64,000 nt of DNA from Ectothiorhodospiraceae bacterium (GTDB lineage Bacteria > Pseudomonadota > Gammaproteobacteria > Nitrococcales > Aquisalimonadaceae): assembly GCA_020831885.1 (NCBI GenBank), contig JAFIFU010000001.1:1-64000 (forward strand). The letters run 5' to 3'. How positions within the stretch are numbered: the first letter of the stretch is position 1; the number at the start of each line of letters is the position of its first letter. The position numbers and the translations under genes are program-made. The notes below the pieces were generated by a model, which saw only the letters and a program-made list of their open reading frames with translations, did no database searches and was not told the DNA's origin. This document shows, piece by piece, positions 5,682-45,269 of this stretch.

Positions 5682-8600
5682 GCATTCACCTTGTCGGCGG
5701 GATCGCTTCCGGTCAACCAGGTTTTCAGCCGTTCGGCATAGCGACTGACCACCAGGTACAAGCAGGGCACGATGAACAGCGTCAGCAGCATGGCCGCCGC
5801 CAGCCCGCCGACCACCGAGAGCGCCAGCGGGCGCATGATTTCCCCGCCCGCGCCGATACCGATGGCCAGAGGCAGCATACCCAGTATGGTGGTGGAGGTG
5901 GTCATCAGAATCGGGCGCAGGCGGACCGTACCGGCGGCGACAACCGCCCGCGCCAGGGACAGTCGCTGTCTGCGCCGGCCGATTTCGATGTACTCCACCA
6001 GCAGAATCGCATTGTTGACCACAACGCCGATCAGCAGAATGACGCCGATCAGTACCGGGGCGGAGACTGGCGTGGCGGTAGCCCAGAGCACGCCCACCAC
6101 GCCCAGCAGGGCCATGGGGGCCGCCGAAATGATCACCAGCGGGTTGCTAAGTCGTTCGTACTGCACCGCCAGGACCACGAACACCAGGAAACCGGCCAGC
6201 AGGATCACCATACCCAGTTCCCGGTTGGTCTCCTGAATCGTTTCCCACTGACCGCCGAAGACCAGGCTGACTTCGTCGGGCAGATCCATCGCTGCCAGCC
6301 GCTGTTCCACCTGGTTCATGATGGTGCCCACATCCGAGATCGCCGTATTGATGTCTCCGGTCACGCGCACCAGACGGCTCTGGTTCTCCCGCTCGATATG
6401 TGCCGGGCCCTCGCCCAGTTGGAAGCGGACCACGTCCCGCAACTGCACCGGGGTGCCGTTGTCGCGGAACAGGGTCAACCCCCCCAGGGCATCCGGATTC
6501 TGGACCGCGTCCCGGGGCAGGCGTACACGGATGTCGTACTCCCGGTTCGCCGTCATGTACTGGGTGGGTACGGCCCCATCCACCGCATCCCGGATCGCCC
6601 GCCCGATATCCGACACCCGAAGGCCCAGGTCAGCCGCCCGTTCCCGGTCCACGCGGATGCGCATCAACGGGCTTTGTGCTTCACGACTGATTTCCACGCC
6701 TTCCAGACCGGGGATGTTCTCCAGCGCGGGGGTGACCCGCCCGGCGATTTCGTGCAACCGGCGCAGGTCATCGCCGACAATCCCGATGGACAGATCGTCG
6801 CCGGTGGTGGTGAAGCGCAGGCCCTCGATGCGAGGGGGGCGTACCCGGATGCGCGCGCCCGGCAGGTCCAGGGCCCGGAGGCGTTCCTGCACTTCGGCAA
6901 CCCACTGGCCGATGGTGAGCTCGCCGCTGCGCTCCCGCTGGGGCAGCAGTTGCACCGAGGTGCGGACCGTGCCCGGGCGCTCGTTGATGACGCCACCCTG
7001 CAGGTGTCCGCCGACCAGCATGAACTGGTTTTCCACATCCGGCATGCCGGCGATCACGTCCTCCACCTGTCGACCCACCGCATCGGTTTCCCCTGGTGGG
7101 GTGCCCGGGGGCAGCCAGACATTGATCGCTATGTTGCCGTCGTCCACCACGGGCAGGAACTCGGTGCCCAGACGCTCAAAGGCCTGCAGCGCCCCGAACA
7201 GGGCCAGAAGCGCCAGGCCGAGTACGACCCAGCGCAGCCGCAGCACCCTGGGCAGCATGCGACGGTACCGGTTGCGCAACCAGCGGATCAGACGATTGAA
7301 CAGGCGCAGTGGAGCTGTGTTCTGCAACCCGCTCTGGAAGCGGATCCCGGTCAACAGGGCCGCCAGCATCGGGACCAGGGTCACGGCCGCCGCCAGCGTG
7401 GCGATGATGGCGAAGGAGATGGTCAGGATCAGGTCGCGGAACACCAGGGACGCGATTCCCGTGATCAGCAGGAAGGGCAGCACCGCCGCCAGGTTGGTGG
7501 CCGTGCCGGCCACGATCGCCGACGTCACCTCGCGCGCGCCCTCCCGGGCCGCCGCATCCGGGGATTTCCCCAATTGCGCCCGGTGCCGGTCGATGTTCTC
7601 CAGCATGACGATGGCGTTGTCCAGCAGCAGGCCAACGCCCAGCGCCAGGCCGCCCAGGCTGATGATGTTCAGGGTCAGGCCGCTCATGCCCATCATGGCG
7701 AAGGTGGCCAGGACAGCGATGGGGATCGACAGCCCGATGATCAGGCTTTTGCGCAGGCTGCCGAGGAACAGGAACACCATCAGCATGGCCAGCACGCCAC
7801 CCAGCAACGCGGCGCCGGCCACGGCGTTGATGGAGCCGCGAATGAAGAAGGCCGGATCGCTGACCGCCTGATACTGGATGTCCTCGGGTATGAAACCGGA
7901 GCGGCGCAGGCGTTGCATGGTGTGGTTCACGCTATCCACCACGTCCACCGTGTTGGCCTGGGGCAGCTTGAATACCGACACCTGCGAGGCCGGATGCCGG
8001 TTGAGGCGGGCGAACAGGCGTTGTTCCCGATACCCGTCGCGCACCTGGGCCACCTCGCCGAGCCGGATGCTGTGCCGCTCATTTCCCGGCGGGCCCAGCA
8101 GAACCTGCTCCACGTCCTCCACCGCCGTGAACAGCCCATCGGTCTTGGCCATCACGTCGAAGGTGCTGGATGTCATCCAGCCGCCGGCGATGTCCACGTT
8201 CTCATCGGCCAGGGCCTGAATCACATGGGAAACCGCCAGACCGTAGGAGCGCAGCCGCTCCTGGTCGATCACCACCTGAATCTCCCGGACCTGGCCACCG
8301 GCGGCTTCCACGCCGGAGACACCGTGGATGGCGATGAGTTGGGGTGTGAGCTGGTTCTCCACCCAGTCCCGCACTTCCGTTTCAGAGCGAATGGTTGAAC
8401 TGAAGCCGGCCTGCCAGATCGGATCCTGGGACGGATCGAACTTGTACAGCCGGGGTGGCTCGATATCCGGCGGCAACTGTGTCCGGGCCAACTCCAGGTA
8501 GCGCGCCGCATCCTGCAGGGCCAGATCCAGATTGGTGCCGTAGGCGAAGTGCAGGTTCACATTGGTGCGCCCTTCCGAGGCGCGGCTGTCAATGCTCACC

Positions 8601-37112: not shown

Positions 37113-38120
37113 ATGCGTATCGCGAACCATGAACTCCCCAACAACCTGGCGCTGGCTCCCATGGCGGGCGTGACCGACCGGCCGTTCCGCATGCTGTGCA
37201 AAGCGCTGGGGGCGGGTATGGCCGCATCCGAGATGGTGACGTCCAATCCGGCGCTACGCAACAGCCGCAAGTCGCAGCTCAAGGCCGATCACCGTGGCGA
37301 ACCGGAGCCCCGTATCATCCAGATCGCCGGTGCGGATCCGGGCTGGATGGCTGATGCGGCCCGCCATAACGTCGGTCATGGTGCCCAGATCATCGATATC
37401 AATATGGGCTGTCCGGCGAAAAAGGTCTGTAACCGGGCCGCCGGCTCAGCCCTGCTGTCCGATGAGGGTCTGGTGCGGGAAATCCTTCAGGCGACGGTGG
37501 AGGCGGTGCCGGTGCCCGTCACGCTGAAGATCCGCACCGGGCCCTCGCCCGAGTGCCGCAATGGCGTCCGCATTGCCGAAATCGCGCAGGCCCAGGGTAT
37601 CCAGGCGCTGGCTGTGCACGGCCGCACCCGGGCCGATGCCTACCGGGGCCGGGCCGAGTACGACACCATCCGGGATATCTGCAGGGCCGTTACCATTCCG
37701 GTGCTGGCGAACGGGGATATCGGCTCGCCGGAACAGGCCGCCCGGGTGCTGGAGTACACCCGGGCCGACGGTGTGATGATCGGCCGGGCGGCCCAGGGCC
37801 GGCCCTGGCTGTTCCGCGAGATCGGCCATTACCTGGAGACCGGCTGCCGGCTGCCGTCTCCACCGCTGGCGGAGATCCGACGGATCATGCTGGGCCATCT
37901 GCGGGAATTGCACGCGTTCTACGGCGAGCATCAGGGTGTGCGGGTGGCGCGCAAGCACATCGGCTGGTACCTGTCGGCGCAGCCCGGGGGCGAGTCCATG
38001 CGGCGGAGGCTGGTCCGGGTTGACTCCGCCACGGAACAGCTTGCTCTTGTGGAAGCCTGTTTCACTACGCTGGAACGTGACGGCGCTGTAGCGACAGCCA
38101 GGCGTGCACTGTCAGCGTAA
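37113..38120 (+). CDS. dusB: tRNA-dihydrouridine synthase B
   Basis: A 335-residue FMN enzyme that reduces uridine at position 17 of tRNAs. The DusB marks are LAPMAGVTDRPFR, INMGCPAKKVCN (the active-site Cys), VHGRTRADAYRGRAEYD, and GRAAQGRPWLF. The start ATG at 37113 follows a weak site. In most gammaproteobacteria dusB is followed by fis and often purH; here it is followed on the other strand by an EamA transporter whose 3' end overlaps it by 56 bases. Confidence 0.92.
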   Translation: MRIANHELPNNLALAPMAGVTDRPFRMLCKALGAGMAASEMVTSNPALRNSRKSQLKADHRGEPEPRIIQIAGADPGWMADAARHNVGHGAQIIDINMGCPAKKVCNRAAGSALLSDEGLVREILQATVEAVPVPVTLKIRTGPSPECRNGVRIAEIAQAQGIQALAVHGRTRADAYRGRAEYDTIRDICRAVTIPVLANGDIGSPEQAARVLEYTRADGVMIGRAAQGRPWLFREIGHYLETGCRLPSPPLAEIRRIMLGHLRELHAFYGEHQGVRVARKHIGWYLSAQPGGESMRRRLVRVDSATEQLALVEACFTTLERDGAVATARRALSA

Positions 38121-38949
38121 GCAGGATCAGTCCGCCGCCCAGGAGCGTGGCCGGTGGTGGTTCCTCCCCCAGGAGCAACCAGACCCACCAGGTGCCCAGC
38201 ACCGTCTCCACCAGCAGGAACAGTGACACCTCGGCCGACGGCAGATAGCGGGTGGCCTCGCCCATCAGCGCCAGGGCCAGGGGCATCTGCACCAGCCCCA
38301 TCACGGCCAGCCAGAACAGGCTCATGCCGGGCACCTGCAGCGGAGCGGAAAACCCGGCCGCCACAAGGCAGGCGATGAGACCACCGCCGGCAACCACCGC
38401 GAGCCGGTCCACCCCCGCCGACCGGCGTAGCAGCGTCAGGTTGGCGCCCACGGTGAAAGCGGCCAGCAGGGCATAAAGATCCCCGAGCCAGCCACCGAAG
38501 CCCAAGGAGCCGGCAAAGACAATGAGAATGCCGCCGATGCAGACGGCCATGGCCAGCCAGGTGCGCACCGGAACCCATTCCCGTAGGAAAACGCCGGACA
38601 GCAGAGCGGCGAACAGGGGTGCGGCGGCCAGGATGACCACCACGTTGGCCACACGGGTATTGAGTACCGCAAGCACGAACAGCATCAGGGTCAGGGCAAA
38701 GCCTACGGCGCTGATGCCGGCGGGCCAGCCACCGCTTGTCAGTTCCTGCCAGGTCCAGCGGCGGCGGAGCAGGCGCAGCGCCAGGGTCAGCGACAGGGCC
38801 ATGAACAGGCCGCGCCAGAAGATCACGTCCCAGGGGCCGGCCACGGCCAGCCTCACCAGGAGTGCGTCGAAGCTGAGCACGGTGGTGCCCAGGGCGGCCA
38901 GCATGATACCGCGGCGGTGATCCGTGATCCTGTTCAGCGTGCTGGACAA
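38065..38949 (-). CDS. EamA/DMT-family transporter
   Basis: A 294-residue integral membrane protein with about ten predicted helices and two EamA repeats (N-terminal near residues 14-140 and C-terminal near 155-285). Members export amino acids or metabolites; substrate not predictable. It converges with dusB and the two coding regions overlap by 56 bases. Starts near MSSTLNRITDHRRG. The next gene is divergent. Confidence 0.85.
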   Translation of the reverse strand: MSSTLNRITDHRRGIMLAALGTTVLSFDALLVRLAVAGPWDVIFWRGLFMALSLTLALRLLRRRWTWQELTSGGWPAGISAVGFALTLMLFVLAVLNTRVANVVVILAAAPLFAALLSGVFLREWVPVRTWLAMAVCIGGILIVFAGSLGFGGWLGDLYALLAAFTVGANLTLLRRSAGVDRLAVVAGGGLIACLVAAGFSAPLQVPGMSLFWLAVMGLVQMPLALALMGEATRYLPSAEVSLFLLVETVLGTWWVWLLLGEEPPPATLLGGGLILLTLTVHAWLSLQRRHVPA

Positions 38950-39076
38950 GAGGGGGCTCCCTGCAAGCCGGTCCGGACCCCAGTTTAGGGGAGAGGCCGT
39001 TTCCCGTCAGGGCCTCCGTGCAGCGACGGCTTCGCCTTTCACCCGGCAGCGGATTGCCGGACAATAGGCTCCCCTG

Positions 39077-42089: not shown

Positions 42090-43199
42090 ATGACACCCAG
42101 GGAACGCTATCAGGCCGATCTGGCCAGGCCCGACTTCGTTCATGACCCGGCCCAGGCGCAGGCGATCGAGGCGCTGCAGGCGTTGCACGACCGACTCTGT
42201 GCGCAGGTGTTTCAGGCACCGCGCCAGGCGGCGGGGATGGCGCGCCTGCTGAGCGTGTTCCGTCCGGCACCACAACCGGAGCCGTTGACCGGGCTTTACA
42301 TGTGGGGCGGTGTGGGCCGTGGCAAGACGTACCTCATGGATACGTTCTATGACTGCCTGCCGTTTCCGGAAAAGCGACGCATGCATTTCCACCGGTTCAT
42401 GCATCTGGTGCACGGGCAGTTGAAAGGTATCCGCGACCAGCAGGATCCGCTGAAGCTGGTTGCCCGTGATTTCGCGGCGGACACCCGGGTGCTGTGCTTC
42501 GACGAGTTCTTTGTCTCCGATATCACCGACGCCATGATACTGGCCGGTCTGCTGGAGGCCCTTTTTGACCTGGGCGTGACCCTGGTGGCCACCTCCAACA
42601 TTCCGCCGGAGGAGCTTTACAAGAACGGGTTGCAGCGGGAGCGGTTCCTGCCGGCCATCCGCCTCCTGCAGCAGCATACCCGGGTGCTGAACGTGGATGG
42701 CGGCACCGATTACCGCCTGCGTTACCTGGAGCAGGCCGAAATCTACCATGCGCCCCTGGACGCGGAGGCCGAGCGGGTGCTGGAGGAGGAATTCCGGCAG
42801 CTTGCACCGGAGGTGGGCAAGCGGGATTGCAGCATCACCATCGAGGGCCGCCGCATTCCGGTGCGGGCGCTGGCCGACGACCTGGTCTGGTTCGAGTTCC
42901 GGGACATCTGCGACGGCCCACGAAGCCAGACCGATTACATCGAGATCTCCCGGGAGTTCCACACGGTCTTCGTCGCGAATGTGCCGGTGCTGGATCAGAC
43001 CATGGAAAATCAGGCACGCCGCTTCATCAGCCTGGTGGACGAATTCTACGATCGCAACGTGAAACTGATCATCACAGCGGCCGCGGAGCCGGAGGAACTG
43101 TACCAGGGCTCGCGTTTGCGTTTCGAGTTCCAGCGCACCGTGAGCCGGCTCCGGGAAATGCAGTCCCGCGACTACCTGGCGCGTCCGCACCGCGCCTGA
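42090..43199 (+). CDS. zapE: Cell division ATPase ZapE (AFG1-like)
   Basis: A 369-residue P-loop ATPase. Walker A is WGGVGRGKTYLMD at about residues 71-83, with FFVSDITDAMI and VATSNIPPEELYKNGLQRERFLP as the AFG1-family signatures. E. coli ZapE binds FtsZ and is needed for division under stress. The ATG at 42090 lies after a GGAG site. A possible -10 (CATAAT) lies at 42046 but the -35 is unclear. Confidence 0.93.
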   Translation: MTPRERYQADLARPDFVHDPAQAQAIEALQALHDRLCAQVFQAPRQAAGMARLLSVFRPAPQPEPLTGLYMWGGVGRGKTYLMDTFYDCLPFPEKRRMHFHRFMHLVHGQLKGIRDQQDPLKLVARDFAADTRVLCFDEFFVSDITDAMILAGLLEALFDLGVTLVATSNIPPEELYKNGLQRERFLPAIRLLQQHTRVLNVDGGTDYRLRYLEQAEIYHAPLDAEAERVLEEEFRQLAPEVGKRDCSITIEGRRIPVRALADDLVWFEFRDICDGPRSQTDYIEISREFHTVFVANVPVLDQTMENQARRFISLVDEFYDRNVKLIITAAAEPEELYQGSRLRFEFQRTVSRLREMQSRDYLARPHRA

Positions 43200-43285
43200 A
43201 GGCGTGCTGGCCCATCAGGCGGCCCGGCGGCTAAAGTTGCATCAAGGACCGGCGGTCCGGCCATGTGACCGCGAGGAGGGATGCT

Positions 43286-44029
43286 GTGACTGAACTCAGG
43301 AAACGGATCATCGAAGCCCACGGCGGCGAGGCCCGCTGGCGTGCCGTTCAGCAGGTGATGGCCTGCGTGTCCATGGGGGGAATGGAGTTCACCTCCCGGT
43401 TTCAGGTTAACCCCCTCCGCAGCGTGGAACTGAGCATCCGGACGGCCAGCCCCGACGTGGCCTTCGCCGATTACCCCGCCTCCAGACAGGTTGCCCGCTT
43501 CCAGCCCAGCCGGGTCTGGGTCGAGGATGCGGGAGGCGGCGTTCTCATGGAGCGCACCGCCCCCGGAGCCGTGTTCCGCTCCCTGCGCCACTGGTTCCTC
43601 TGGGATACGCTGGATGTGGTCTACTATTGCGGAATGACGCTGTGGCAGGCGCTCTGTCTGCCGTTCAGCCTGTTGCGGTCCGGCTGTGAGCTGGAGGAGC
43701 TGGAGCCGGTGGACCTGGGGGATGAGCACCTGCAGCGGCTGCGTGTCGTATTGCCGGCCGACATCCCCAGCTTCGCCCCGGAACAGATCTTTCATGTTGA
43801 CGGGACGGGGCTTGTGCGGCGGGTGGATTATGCGCCGAACCTGTATGGTTCGTGGATGCGGGTGGCCCAACTCATGGATGGTTTCGAAACCGTGGATGGT
43901 CTCGTGCTGGCCACCCGAAGACGCATTCATGTGGCGTTACCCAATGGTGGGATCATGCCCGGAATCCCTTTGGGATGGATGGATCTCGACGATGTTGGGT
44001 TCGTGCAACAGCCGCCAGTGGATTCTTGA
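43286..44029 (+). CDS. Hypothetical protein, 247 residues
   Basis: GTG at 43286, seven bases after GAGGAGGG; a GTG at 43265 in the same frame is possible. The opening LRKRIIEAHGGEARWRAVQQV and the later beta-rich repeats (MEFTSRFQVNPLRSVELSI, DVAFADYPASRQVARFQPS) resemble uncharacterised lipid-binding-like proteins such as those with LolA/LolB-type barrels, but I cannot name the family. No signal peptide is evident. It converges with a histone deacetylase-type gene across the DnaA-box spacer. Confidence 0.72.
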   Translation: MTELRKRIIEAHGGEARWRAVQQVMACVSMGGMEFTSRFQVNPLRSVELSIRTASPDVAFADYPASRQVARFQPSRVWVEDAGGGVLMERTAPGAVFRSLRHWFLWDTLDVVYYCGMTLWQALCLPFSLLRSGCELEELEPVDLGDEHLQRLRVVLPADIPSFAPEQIFHVDGTGLVRRVDYAPNLYGSWMRVAQLMDGFETVDGLVLATRRRIHVALPNGGIMPGIPLGWMDLDDVGFVQQPPVDS

Positions 44030-44336
44030 TTTCGCCTCTAAATGCTTGCCCTGTCTCCCGAACCCGGGTTTTTCCACATAAGCTGTGGATAACTTTGTGG
44101 ATGAACCGTAGAAACCGCGCTCAACCCCCCACCGACAGTCCTTTTTGTTGGATCGGGCAATTTTTCGCCATATTATAAAAAGCCTTGTAAAACAGAGTTA
44201 TGGAGGCTTTCTGGCGATTGGTTCCGTGGGCCCGGGACCCATCGGGTGCCACCGGCCACCGGATGTGCATAACTGGGTTCATGGAACGTCTGCCGGCGAT
44301 TCTGTCAAGCCCTTAAGCGGCCTGTTCCGAGGGGGC
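44030..44336. other. Convergent AT-rich spacer with clustered DnaA-box motifs (candidate oriC or DnaA-titration site)
   Basis: A 307-base spacer between two convergent genes, so no promoter for either gene is needed here. It contains TTWTNCACA-type boxes: TTTTCCACA at 44070-44078 (+), TTATCCACA at 44084-44092 (-), a one-mismatch TCATCCACA at 44096-44104 (-) and TTATGCACA at 44264-44272 (-). Between them 44141-44200 is about 67% A+T, with 44161-44200 over 70%, in an otherwise GC-rich window. A promoter-like TTGGAT-17-TATTAT (44148-44176) is also present. These traits suit a DnaA-bound unwinding region. dnaA, dnaN and gyrB are not nearby and gene orientations do not diverge from here, so its role is unproven. 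Confidence 0.55.
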
Positions 44337-45269
44337 TCAGGCCAGGTTGTCGGACAGGGTGCGGATGTGCGCCGCTCCCGCTTCGGCCACCGCATGGAGG
44401 TCATAGCCGCCCTCAAGAAACGAGATGATGCCGCCGTTGCAGAAACGGTTGGCCACATAGGTCAGTTGCTCCGTCGCCCAGGCGTAGTCGTTGGTGGTCA
44501 GGGACAGGTTGGCCAGGGGATCCAGCTCGTGGGCGTCGAAACCTGCTGAGATCAGCAGCAACTGCGGCCCGAATTGCTCCAGTTGCGGAATGATGAATTC
44601 CCGGAAGGCTTCGCGGAAATCCGACGAACCGCTGAACCGGTTCAGCGGCACGTTGACCACGTTGTCCACTCCGGGGACGGGTCCATGGCCGGTGCCCGGG
44701 AACAGTGGATGCTCGTGGGTGGACAGGTACATGAATCCGCGTTTTCCGGCCAACATGCTCTGCGTGCCGTTGCCGTGGTGTACGTCGAAGTCCACCACCG
44801 CGACCCGGTCCACATGATACTCGGCGCGGGCATGGGCGGCCGCCACGGCCACATTGTTGAACAGGCAGAAACCCATGGCCGTCTCCGGCTCCGCATGATG
44901 CCCCGGCGGGCGTATCGCGCAGAAGGCGCGCTGGGTCTGACCGGACATGACCGCGTCCACCGCCGCCACGCCGGCTCCGGCGGCACGCAAGGCCGCGGCC
45001 CCGGAAGCGGGGGAAATGAAGGTATCGCCATCGATGGCGCTCAGACCCTCCTTTGGAATGCGTGCCAGCATGTCGTTCACGTAGCCGGCATCGTGGACCC
45101 GGGCAAGCTGCTCCTTCGTTGCCTCCGGCGCCTCGTGCCAGTCCAGGTCCGCAAAATCCGGTTTCCTGAGCCGTGTGAGCAGGGCCCGCAGGCGGTCGGA
45201 CGATTCCGGGTGGCCCGGGCCTGTGTCGTGCTGCAGGCAGAGATCGTGGGTATAAATCCAGGTGGTCAT
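44337..45269 (-). CDS. Histone deacetylase family protein (acetylpolyamine/acetoin-type deacetylase)
   Basis: A 310-residue metal-dependent amidohydrolase. The signature residues are RPPGHHAEP, VVDFDVHHGNGTQ (Asp-His zinc ligands) and LISAGFDAHELDPLANLSL. Bacterial relatives deacetylate acetylpolyamines or act in acetoin use; substrate not assigned. Length and order agree with the family. Converges with the hypothetical gene across the DnaA-box region and diverges from hspQ. Confidence 0.9.
   Translation of the reverse strand: MTTWIYTHDLCLQHDTGPGHPESSDRLRALLTRLRKPDFADLDWHEAPEATKEQLARVHDAGYVNDMLARIPKEGLSAIDGDTFISPASGAAALRAAGAGVAAVDAVMSGQTQRAFCAIRPPGHHAEPETAMGFCLFNNVAVAAAHARAEYHVDRVAVVDFDVHHGNGTQSMLAGKRGFMYLSTHEHPLFPGTGHGPVPGVDNVVNVPLNRFSGSSDFREAFREFIIPQLEQFGPQLLLISAGFDAHELDPLANLSLTTNDYAWATEQLTYVANRFCNGGIISFLEGGYDLHAVAEAGAAHIRTLSDNLA

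Follow-up and report, generated by a model that had tools for sequence, protein, structure and literature searches.

What does a cluster of DnaA boxes do when it lies beside an AT-rich segment in a spacer between two convergent genes? The question is raised by a locus at 44 kb in the window, by which we mean the whole 64,000-nucleotide stretch of DNA analysed here, located on a 314,811-bp contig (C107) in the 129-contig draft assembly of an Ectothiorhodospiraceae bacterium (GCA_020831885.1). The initial annotation of this locus suggested either a relocated oriC or a regulatory DnaA locus, the latter of the datA or of the DnaA-reactivating (DARS) kind. DARS were reportedly described by Fujimitsu in 2009. 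Judging from its sequence and by analogy with E. coli, we consider it probable that the element is a DARS of the DARS1 type, with a presumed function in DnaA reactivation. This identification was made possible by the spacing and orientation of boxes I to III, which the initial annotation had not taken into account. PMC10380432 states, after earlier work, that many proteobacteria have conserved DARS-like sequences (here and below, PMC numbers stand for excerpts of the papers), so that a DARS in another proteobacterium is to be expected.

DnaA boxes in a convergent spacer

The three exact matches to TTWTNCACA and the one-mismatch copy that had been noticed in the spacer are all present (Table 1), and the flanking genes do converge. 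The window contains five exact boxes in total, compared with 0.99 expected, and a count of five was reached in none of 100 shuffles; the other two are the single matches near 7029 and 12534, which were also recorded initially and are exact. Across the 384 kb scanned (contigs C107, C60 and C106), three boxes with up to one mismatch occur inside 60 bp at two places only, namely the window's spacer and the dnaA-dnaN spacer, the cluster in the latter being made of one-mismatch boxes only. The 60 bases described as about 67% A+T (44141-44200) are indeed 66.7% A+T, and the 60-mer starting at 44142, which is the spacer's best (68.3% A+T), exceeds every other one of the window's 63,940 60-mers in A+T content. 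A simple consensus scan of the spacer gave no site resembling a promoter or a terminator, and Rfam gave no structured RNA at the gathering score.

Sequences related to the 254-aa left neighbour can be found beside the deacetylase gene within the family, with about 45-71% identity over long matches. Elsewhere in the window, a single 1-kb bin (38001-39000) has a strong AT skew (0.307) that differs from those of its neighbours.

Table 1. Features of the candidate DARS and of its neighbourhood, in window positions. Offsets preceded by + are relative to the start of the core.
Feature	Position	Strand	Basis or remark
zapE (cell division ATPase), synteny marker	42090..43199	+	NF040713, 456.8 bits, cut-off 140
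Left neighbour, conserved 254-aa protein	43265..44029	+	no Pfam/NCBIfam match at E 0.001
Entire DARS-like element (boxes I to IV)	44070..44272	+	core geometry, flank profile, synteny; convergent intergenic
DnaA box I, TTTTCCACA	44070..44078	+	exact match
DnaA box II, TTATCCACA	44084..44092	-	exact match; head-to-head with box I across 5 bp
DnaA box III, TCATCCACA	44096..44104	-	one mismatch; 3 bp past box II, orientation as box II
GAAAC	44111..44115	+	weak conservation at +41..+45 (fixed register)
Fis-like 15-mer, GGGCAATTTTTCGCC	44155..44169	+	predicted site; 1 mismatch to GNNYANNNNNTRNNC; within AT-rich segment
Degenerate IHF-like site, TAAAACAGAGTTA	44188..44200	+	3 mismatches; near relatives' consensus-like site at +120/+121
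DnaA box IV, TTATGCACA	44264..44272	-	exact match; at +194
Right neighbour, histone-deacetylase-family protein	44337..45269	-	PF00850, 296.2 bits; convergent

A core with the geometry of the E. coli DARS

Boxes I to III form a core (44070-44104) with the arrangement 9-5-9-3-9, which is identical in box lengths, gaps and orientations to both DARS1 (L003 608-642) and DARS2 (L004 2452-2486) of E. coli K-12, and which favours the DARS option among those raised initially. DARS1 and DARS2 are known to share this spacing, with box I opposed to boxes II and III (PMC5742627). The pattern TTWTCC-N8-TGTGGATAA-N4-GTG has two matches in the 4.13-Mb host genome, where 2.7e-5 exact cores would be expected by chance from composition (assuming 65.5% GC), and the second match is found at position 22793 of contig C106. 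Allowing up to three mismatches to a longer core consensus recovered the same two sites only, and none for the reversed pattern. Exact single boxes number 60 in the whole host genome versus 50 for the reversed pattern, which indicates no strong general excess of boxes.

Of 95 relatives, 36 (host included) have the core pattern and none has its reversed form; the absence of the strict pattern from the other 59 counts against the DARS reading. Among 150 genomes drawn from the phylum, the core was present in 14 of the 37 that belong to the host's class (host included), and also, which again counts against this reading, in 11 of the 113 from other classes. We also searched the 95 relatives for inverted box pairs in which TTATCCACA and TGTGGAWAA are separated by no more than 30 bp. 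By hand count, such pairs were found at 67 distinct places in 37 genomes, and the gap was exactly 5 bp in 59 of the 67; the remaining eight gaps were 17 (three), 24, 28, 29, 30 and 30 bp, with 17 corresponding to the distance from box I to box III. The reversed pair was present in one of the 95 genomes (G091, one match per strand). We take these counts to mean that the box-pair spacing is under selection.

Conservation of the element in relatives

An unbiased set of spacers was assembled through the neighbouring deacetylase gene, using no information on the core, from 14 genomes of the family. The orthologous neighbourhood was present in 13, and in G012 the search recovered only a 43%-identical paralogue. 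Conservation of the motifs in close relatives had been named as a check on the locus, and 10 of the 13 spacers keep the three-box core with zero mismatches (host, G001, G002, G004 and G007), one (G009 and G011) or two (G003, G006 and G013). The spacers of G005 and G010 have kept boxes II and III and lost box I, and that of G008 has no core within eight mismatches; these three spacers count against the DARS reading. The gene order zapE, core, deacetylase, metW, metX is also seen in G022 and G026, which belong to other families of the order and were chosen because they carry the core, so that the same spacer holds a core in genomes from three families of the order. This spacer is convergent in the syntenic relatives as well.

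The second host core, on C106, is flanked by genes for a D-amino-acid dehydrogenase and an oligopeptidase-B-like protein (the latter assignment scoring under the cut-off of its model) in the six relatives compared at this site, which were picked by a core or box-pair match and therefore give no unbiased count. The same spacer in the host (L005) also contains a half core, with boxes II and III and without box I (7503-7523), located 305 bp upstream of the full core (7794-7828) and in the same register. In G002, this spacer has two full cores separated by the same 305 bp, which suggests that one of the host copies is decaying.

We examined whether the elements keep a fixed distance from oriC, and rejected this: the distance to dnaA differs among them, which counts against the DARS reading. 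G026 is a single contig of 1.90 Mb with its dnaA at 16, and it carries the window-type site at 0.319 Mb and a further core at 0.870 Mb; for G003 (a single contig of about 4.0 Mb, dnaA likewise at 16), simple arithmetic places the window-type site near 0.533 Mb.

A conserved arm on the box-III side

Flank statistics were obtained from 120 sites in named genomes with 150 bases before the core start and 285 from it onwards, of which 84 were left once sites with flank identities of 45% or more had been discarded; all sites together number 159, of which 102 are dissimilar. The underlying scan of named genomes yielded at least 118 stretches, 80 of them with titles, and is not a census. In the 102 dissimilar sites, in-register conservation is found mainly from about +36 to +135, on the side of box III. 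G at +86 together with C at +100 occurs in 40 of the 84 dissimilar named sites listed (control mean 5.2, maximum 13), and the sequence that these two bases enclose is AT-rich in the manner of a Fis site. An IHF-like motif (WAWCARNNNNTTR) starts between +117 and +122 in 23 of the 84 named sites listed (control mean 0.125, maximum 1).

A profile built from the 84 dissimilar named sites gives the window's flank 27.9 bits, a score reached at none of the 89,890 positions of C107 that were scanned (every seventh base, both strands) and in none of 2000 shuffles. The flank of the C106 copy scores 23.3 bits (none of 1000 shuffles) and that of E. coli DARS1 scores 16.4 bits (none of 1000 shuffles); since the profile may contain sites close to E. 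coli DARS1, the score with similar sites left out is the fairer one for this locus, at 15.0 bits (none of 200 shuffles). The flank of E. coli DARS2 reaches 4.1 bits, which 153 of 1000 shuffles also reached and which we count against the DARS reading. With left-out scores, 116 of all 159 sites, and 79 of the 120 named sites listed, were reached by at most one of 200 shuffles; the other 41 of these 120 were reached by at least two and are thus not clearly above chance, another point against the DARS reading.

Under a loose rule, an IHF-like site at +120 to +122 is present in the C106 copy of the host and in G002, G003, G006, G009, G013, G022 and G026, and is found neither in the window nor in G001, G004, G007 and G011. 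Consensus-like IHF sites are thus seen in seven of the 11 relatives examined and in the C106 copy. The window itself has the Fis-like and the more degenerate IHF-like site listed in Table 1, both on the opposite side of the core from the probable sites of DARS2. The AT-rich segment is held in a fixed register with the Fis-like and IHF-like motifs, and is for that reason better regarded as part of the arm than as evidence for an unwinding element; on this conservation, we consider that it belongs to the element.

A fourth box also belongs to the arm. Exact minus-strand boxes can be found at the syntenic site in nine of the 11 relatives examined, at +193 to +195 in G001, G002, G022 and G026 and at +203 to +205 in G003, G006, G009, G011 and G013. 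For G004, G007 and the C106 copy, no exact box IV was recorded, which counts against the DARS reading. Between +190 and +209, the 102 dissimilar sites have a total of 29 exact minus-strand boxes (at 28 loci), compared with five elsewhere beyond +40, and TTATGCACA, the sequence of the window's own box IV, accounts for 16 of the 29. Seven of them lie at +190 to +194 and 22 at +201 to +207, and none of the 102 sites has an exact box at +195 to +200; with one mismatch allowed, four boxes appear at +195 to +199, and the boxes of G001 and G002 are exact at +195. These two groups, which were defined after the data were seen, are one helical turn apart. The phase concentration at 10.5 bp over +185 to +215 was 0.66, a value reached in none of 5000 random draws. 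The majority of the 102 dissimilar sites have no box IV, which counts against the DARS reading. Where the box is present, its position and phasing indicate that the far box is conserved.

Alternative explanations

The boxes could instead hold DnaA, or inactivate ATP-DnaA with the help of IHF in the manner of datA, with no reactivation of ADP-DnaA. The four boxes, with an IHF-like site between the core and box IV, resemble the box-IHF-box order of datA (L214), and a table of DnaA-bound regions in E. coli includes the DARS loci (PMC11317965). The geometry speaks against a datA-like site: the head-to-head pair with its 5-bp gap, so strictly held in the relatives, is missing from the E. coli datA region, where the best core match within 10 kb has seven mismatches, and the datA option of the initial annotation was dropped on this ground. 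The number of exact boxes in the host genome (60 versus 50), which shows no strong general excess, likewise speaks against this alternative. We regard titration or datA-like inactivation as a minor possibility.

DnaA regulates promoters in E. coli (PMC11317965), and the boxes might likewise control the transcription of the neighbouring genes or form a structure at their transcription ends. As the spacer is convergent in the host and its syntenic relatives, and the consensus scan gave neither a promoter-like nor a terminator-like site, we judged such a role quite unlikely.

For a relocated or second origin, in which the AT-rich segment would serve as the unwinding element, the argument is that the box cluster adjoins the most AT-rich 60-mer of the window. 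As had been noted, neither dnaA nor dnaN is nearby; both are on contig C60, where the dnaA gene was recognized with 606 bits and the dnaA-dnaN spacer holds two exact boxes and an AT-rich tract. The sequence preceding this dnaA-dnaN stretch is presumably rpmH. Of the 32 10-kb bins of C107, 30 have a positive GC skew; the two negative ones are at 200-220 kb, and there is no switch at 44 kb. The skew on C60 is noisy and proves little. In addition, dnaA and dnaN are absent from all 149 listed core loci (a few kb each; in the control locus L006, the queries found themselves), and the AT-rich segment is kept in register with the Fis-like and IHF-like motifs. The relocated oriC proposed initially was accordingly abandoned on skew, gene context and the conserved arm, and an origin at 44 kb is very unlikely.

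A chance cluster, which the single exact boxes at 7029 and 12534 might suggest, has a practically negligible probability given the expected number of cores per genome, the recurrence of the core in one spacer across three families and in 10 of 13 spacers chosen without it, its presence in 36 of 95 relatives against none for the reversed form, and the flank profile.

A possible mechanism and its significance

As a DARS would, the window element lies in an intergenic region away from dnaA and the probable oriC. Core geometry, copy number, synteny, conservation of the arm and phasing are directly supported by our analyses, and from these we infer the binding of DnaA, Fis and IHF and the reactivation of DnaA at the element. 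If the mechanism can be transferred from E. coli (PMC5742627; PMC8682772), ADP-DnaA would occupy boxes I and II in a head-to-head arrangement in which box III takes part, and this interaction would loosen the ADP; apo-DnaA would then leave and take up ATP, so that more ATP-DnaA is available when the true oriC next initiates. The 3' arm, with its Fis-like 15-mer, IHF-like site and box IV, would shape this complex, and a bend near +120 would draw DnaA bound at box IV towards the core. Looping of this kind is consistent with the constant helical face on which box IV lies, and the conserved architecture suggests an IHF-bent loop. As the IHF-like site of the window is degenerate, the bend may be weaker here or made by another protein.

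The host genome encodes DnaA, Hda (256.6 bits), DiaA (55% identical), IHF alpha (168.3 bits) and a Fis homologue (58% identical over 73 aa), and its gene content and kinship point to a gammaproteobacterium. With these partner genes present, and reasoning from E. coli, ADP-DnaA should come from RIDA and need recharging.

We tentatively propose, as a possibility about which we have considerable doubt, that one common kind of DARS in gamma- and betaproteobacteria may be a four-box form coupled to IHF and Fis. This form would comprise the core and, on the box-III side, a Fis-like site at +86, an IHF site near +120 and, in many cases, a box IV of the TTATGCACA type at +190 to +195 or +201 to +207, placed on a fixed helical face. 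If this is true, E. coli DARS1 would represent a stripped-down remnant of this form, DARS2 would have been rebuilt so that its control region lies on the opposite side, and DnaA recharging would ordinarily proceed via an IHF-bent loop between the core and box IV.

In the literature searched (PMC4585315, PMC4245941, PMC8682772, PMC11317965, PMC10380432, PMC5742627 and PMC12371093, in the excerpts covered), neither a phased fourth box nor a Fis-like and IHF-like arm on the box-III side is described for DARS1-type sites, although such a description may be in print elsewhere. To that extent, the four-box form with its Fis-like, IHF-like and box-IV arm, which E. coli DARS1 has in part, may be new. 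The shared, phased arm also offers a simple pattern by which candidate DnaA-recharging sites could be found where none are annotated.

Comparison with known DnaA-regulatory loci

The 80 titled matches listed are mostly from gammaproteobacteria, with some from beta- and a few from alphaproteobacteria. Two odd labels among the titles listed (Armatimonadetes and Planktophila MAGs) may be mis-binned or due to chance. In 11 of the 113 named loci listed, uvrB is nearby, which is the position of DARS1, and in seven mutH is nearby, which is the position of DARS2. An Alcaligenaceae MAG (L098) carries four tandem DARS-like cores at 2482, 2785, 3080 and 3375, in steps of about 300 bp, and pairs of cores about 520 bp apart occur in Pseudomonas peli (L099) and in L139. 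Three sites from another class of the phylum (G137:C13, G165:C29 and G189:C98) have a third box-like GTG on both sides of the head-to-head pair, and the resulting core, which is nearly palindromic, may represent either an oriC or a DARS of symmetric form.

The host's probable oriC, in the dnaA-dnaN spacer, resembles the window element in having DnaA boxes near AT-rich DNA, but it adjoins dnaA and dnaN, and the 19 kb surrounding this dnaA contain no DARS core (best match seven mismatches). The best core match in 7 kb around the E. coli oriC has nine mismatches. E. coli datA shares DnaA boxes and an IHF site with the window element and differs from it in lacking the 5-bp head-to-head pair.

Of DARS1 it is known that the flank adjoining the core matters for activity, and IHF and Fis sites are known as a trait of DARS2 only. 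E. coli DARS1, in the bioD-uvrB spacer, has the same 9-5-9-3-9 core and orientations as the window element, a 3' flank that fits the window-type profile, G and C at +86 and +100, and a two-mismatch IHF-like site at +121. Its neighbour is uvrB, whereas the window element is accompanied by zapE and the deacetylase gene, and from its sequence it has no box IV at +190 to +207, where the window has one. DARS1 is described as active in vitro with no added factors (PMC5742627), and the arm predicts control by IHF and Fis for DARS1-type sites that have been described as helper-free.

E. coli DARS2, upstream of mutH, shares the core geometry and has extra boxes as well (PMC4245941), but its 3' flank, unlike that of the window, does not fit the profile. 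It has a one-mismatch IHF match at +119, which we considered as the published IHF-binding site and dropped, because the box-I side has two one-mismatch matches 3 bp apart, at -223 and -207; this pair is probably the published IBS1-2. The DARS literature, in the excerpts covered, rests on these two E. coli loci, whose control regions seem unrelated, and a phased arm shared among proteobacterial sites would provide a common form with which the two can be compared.
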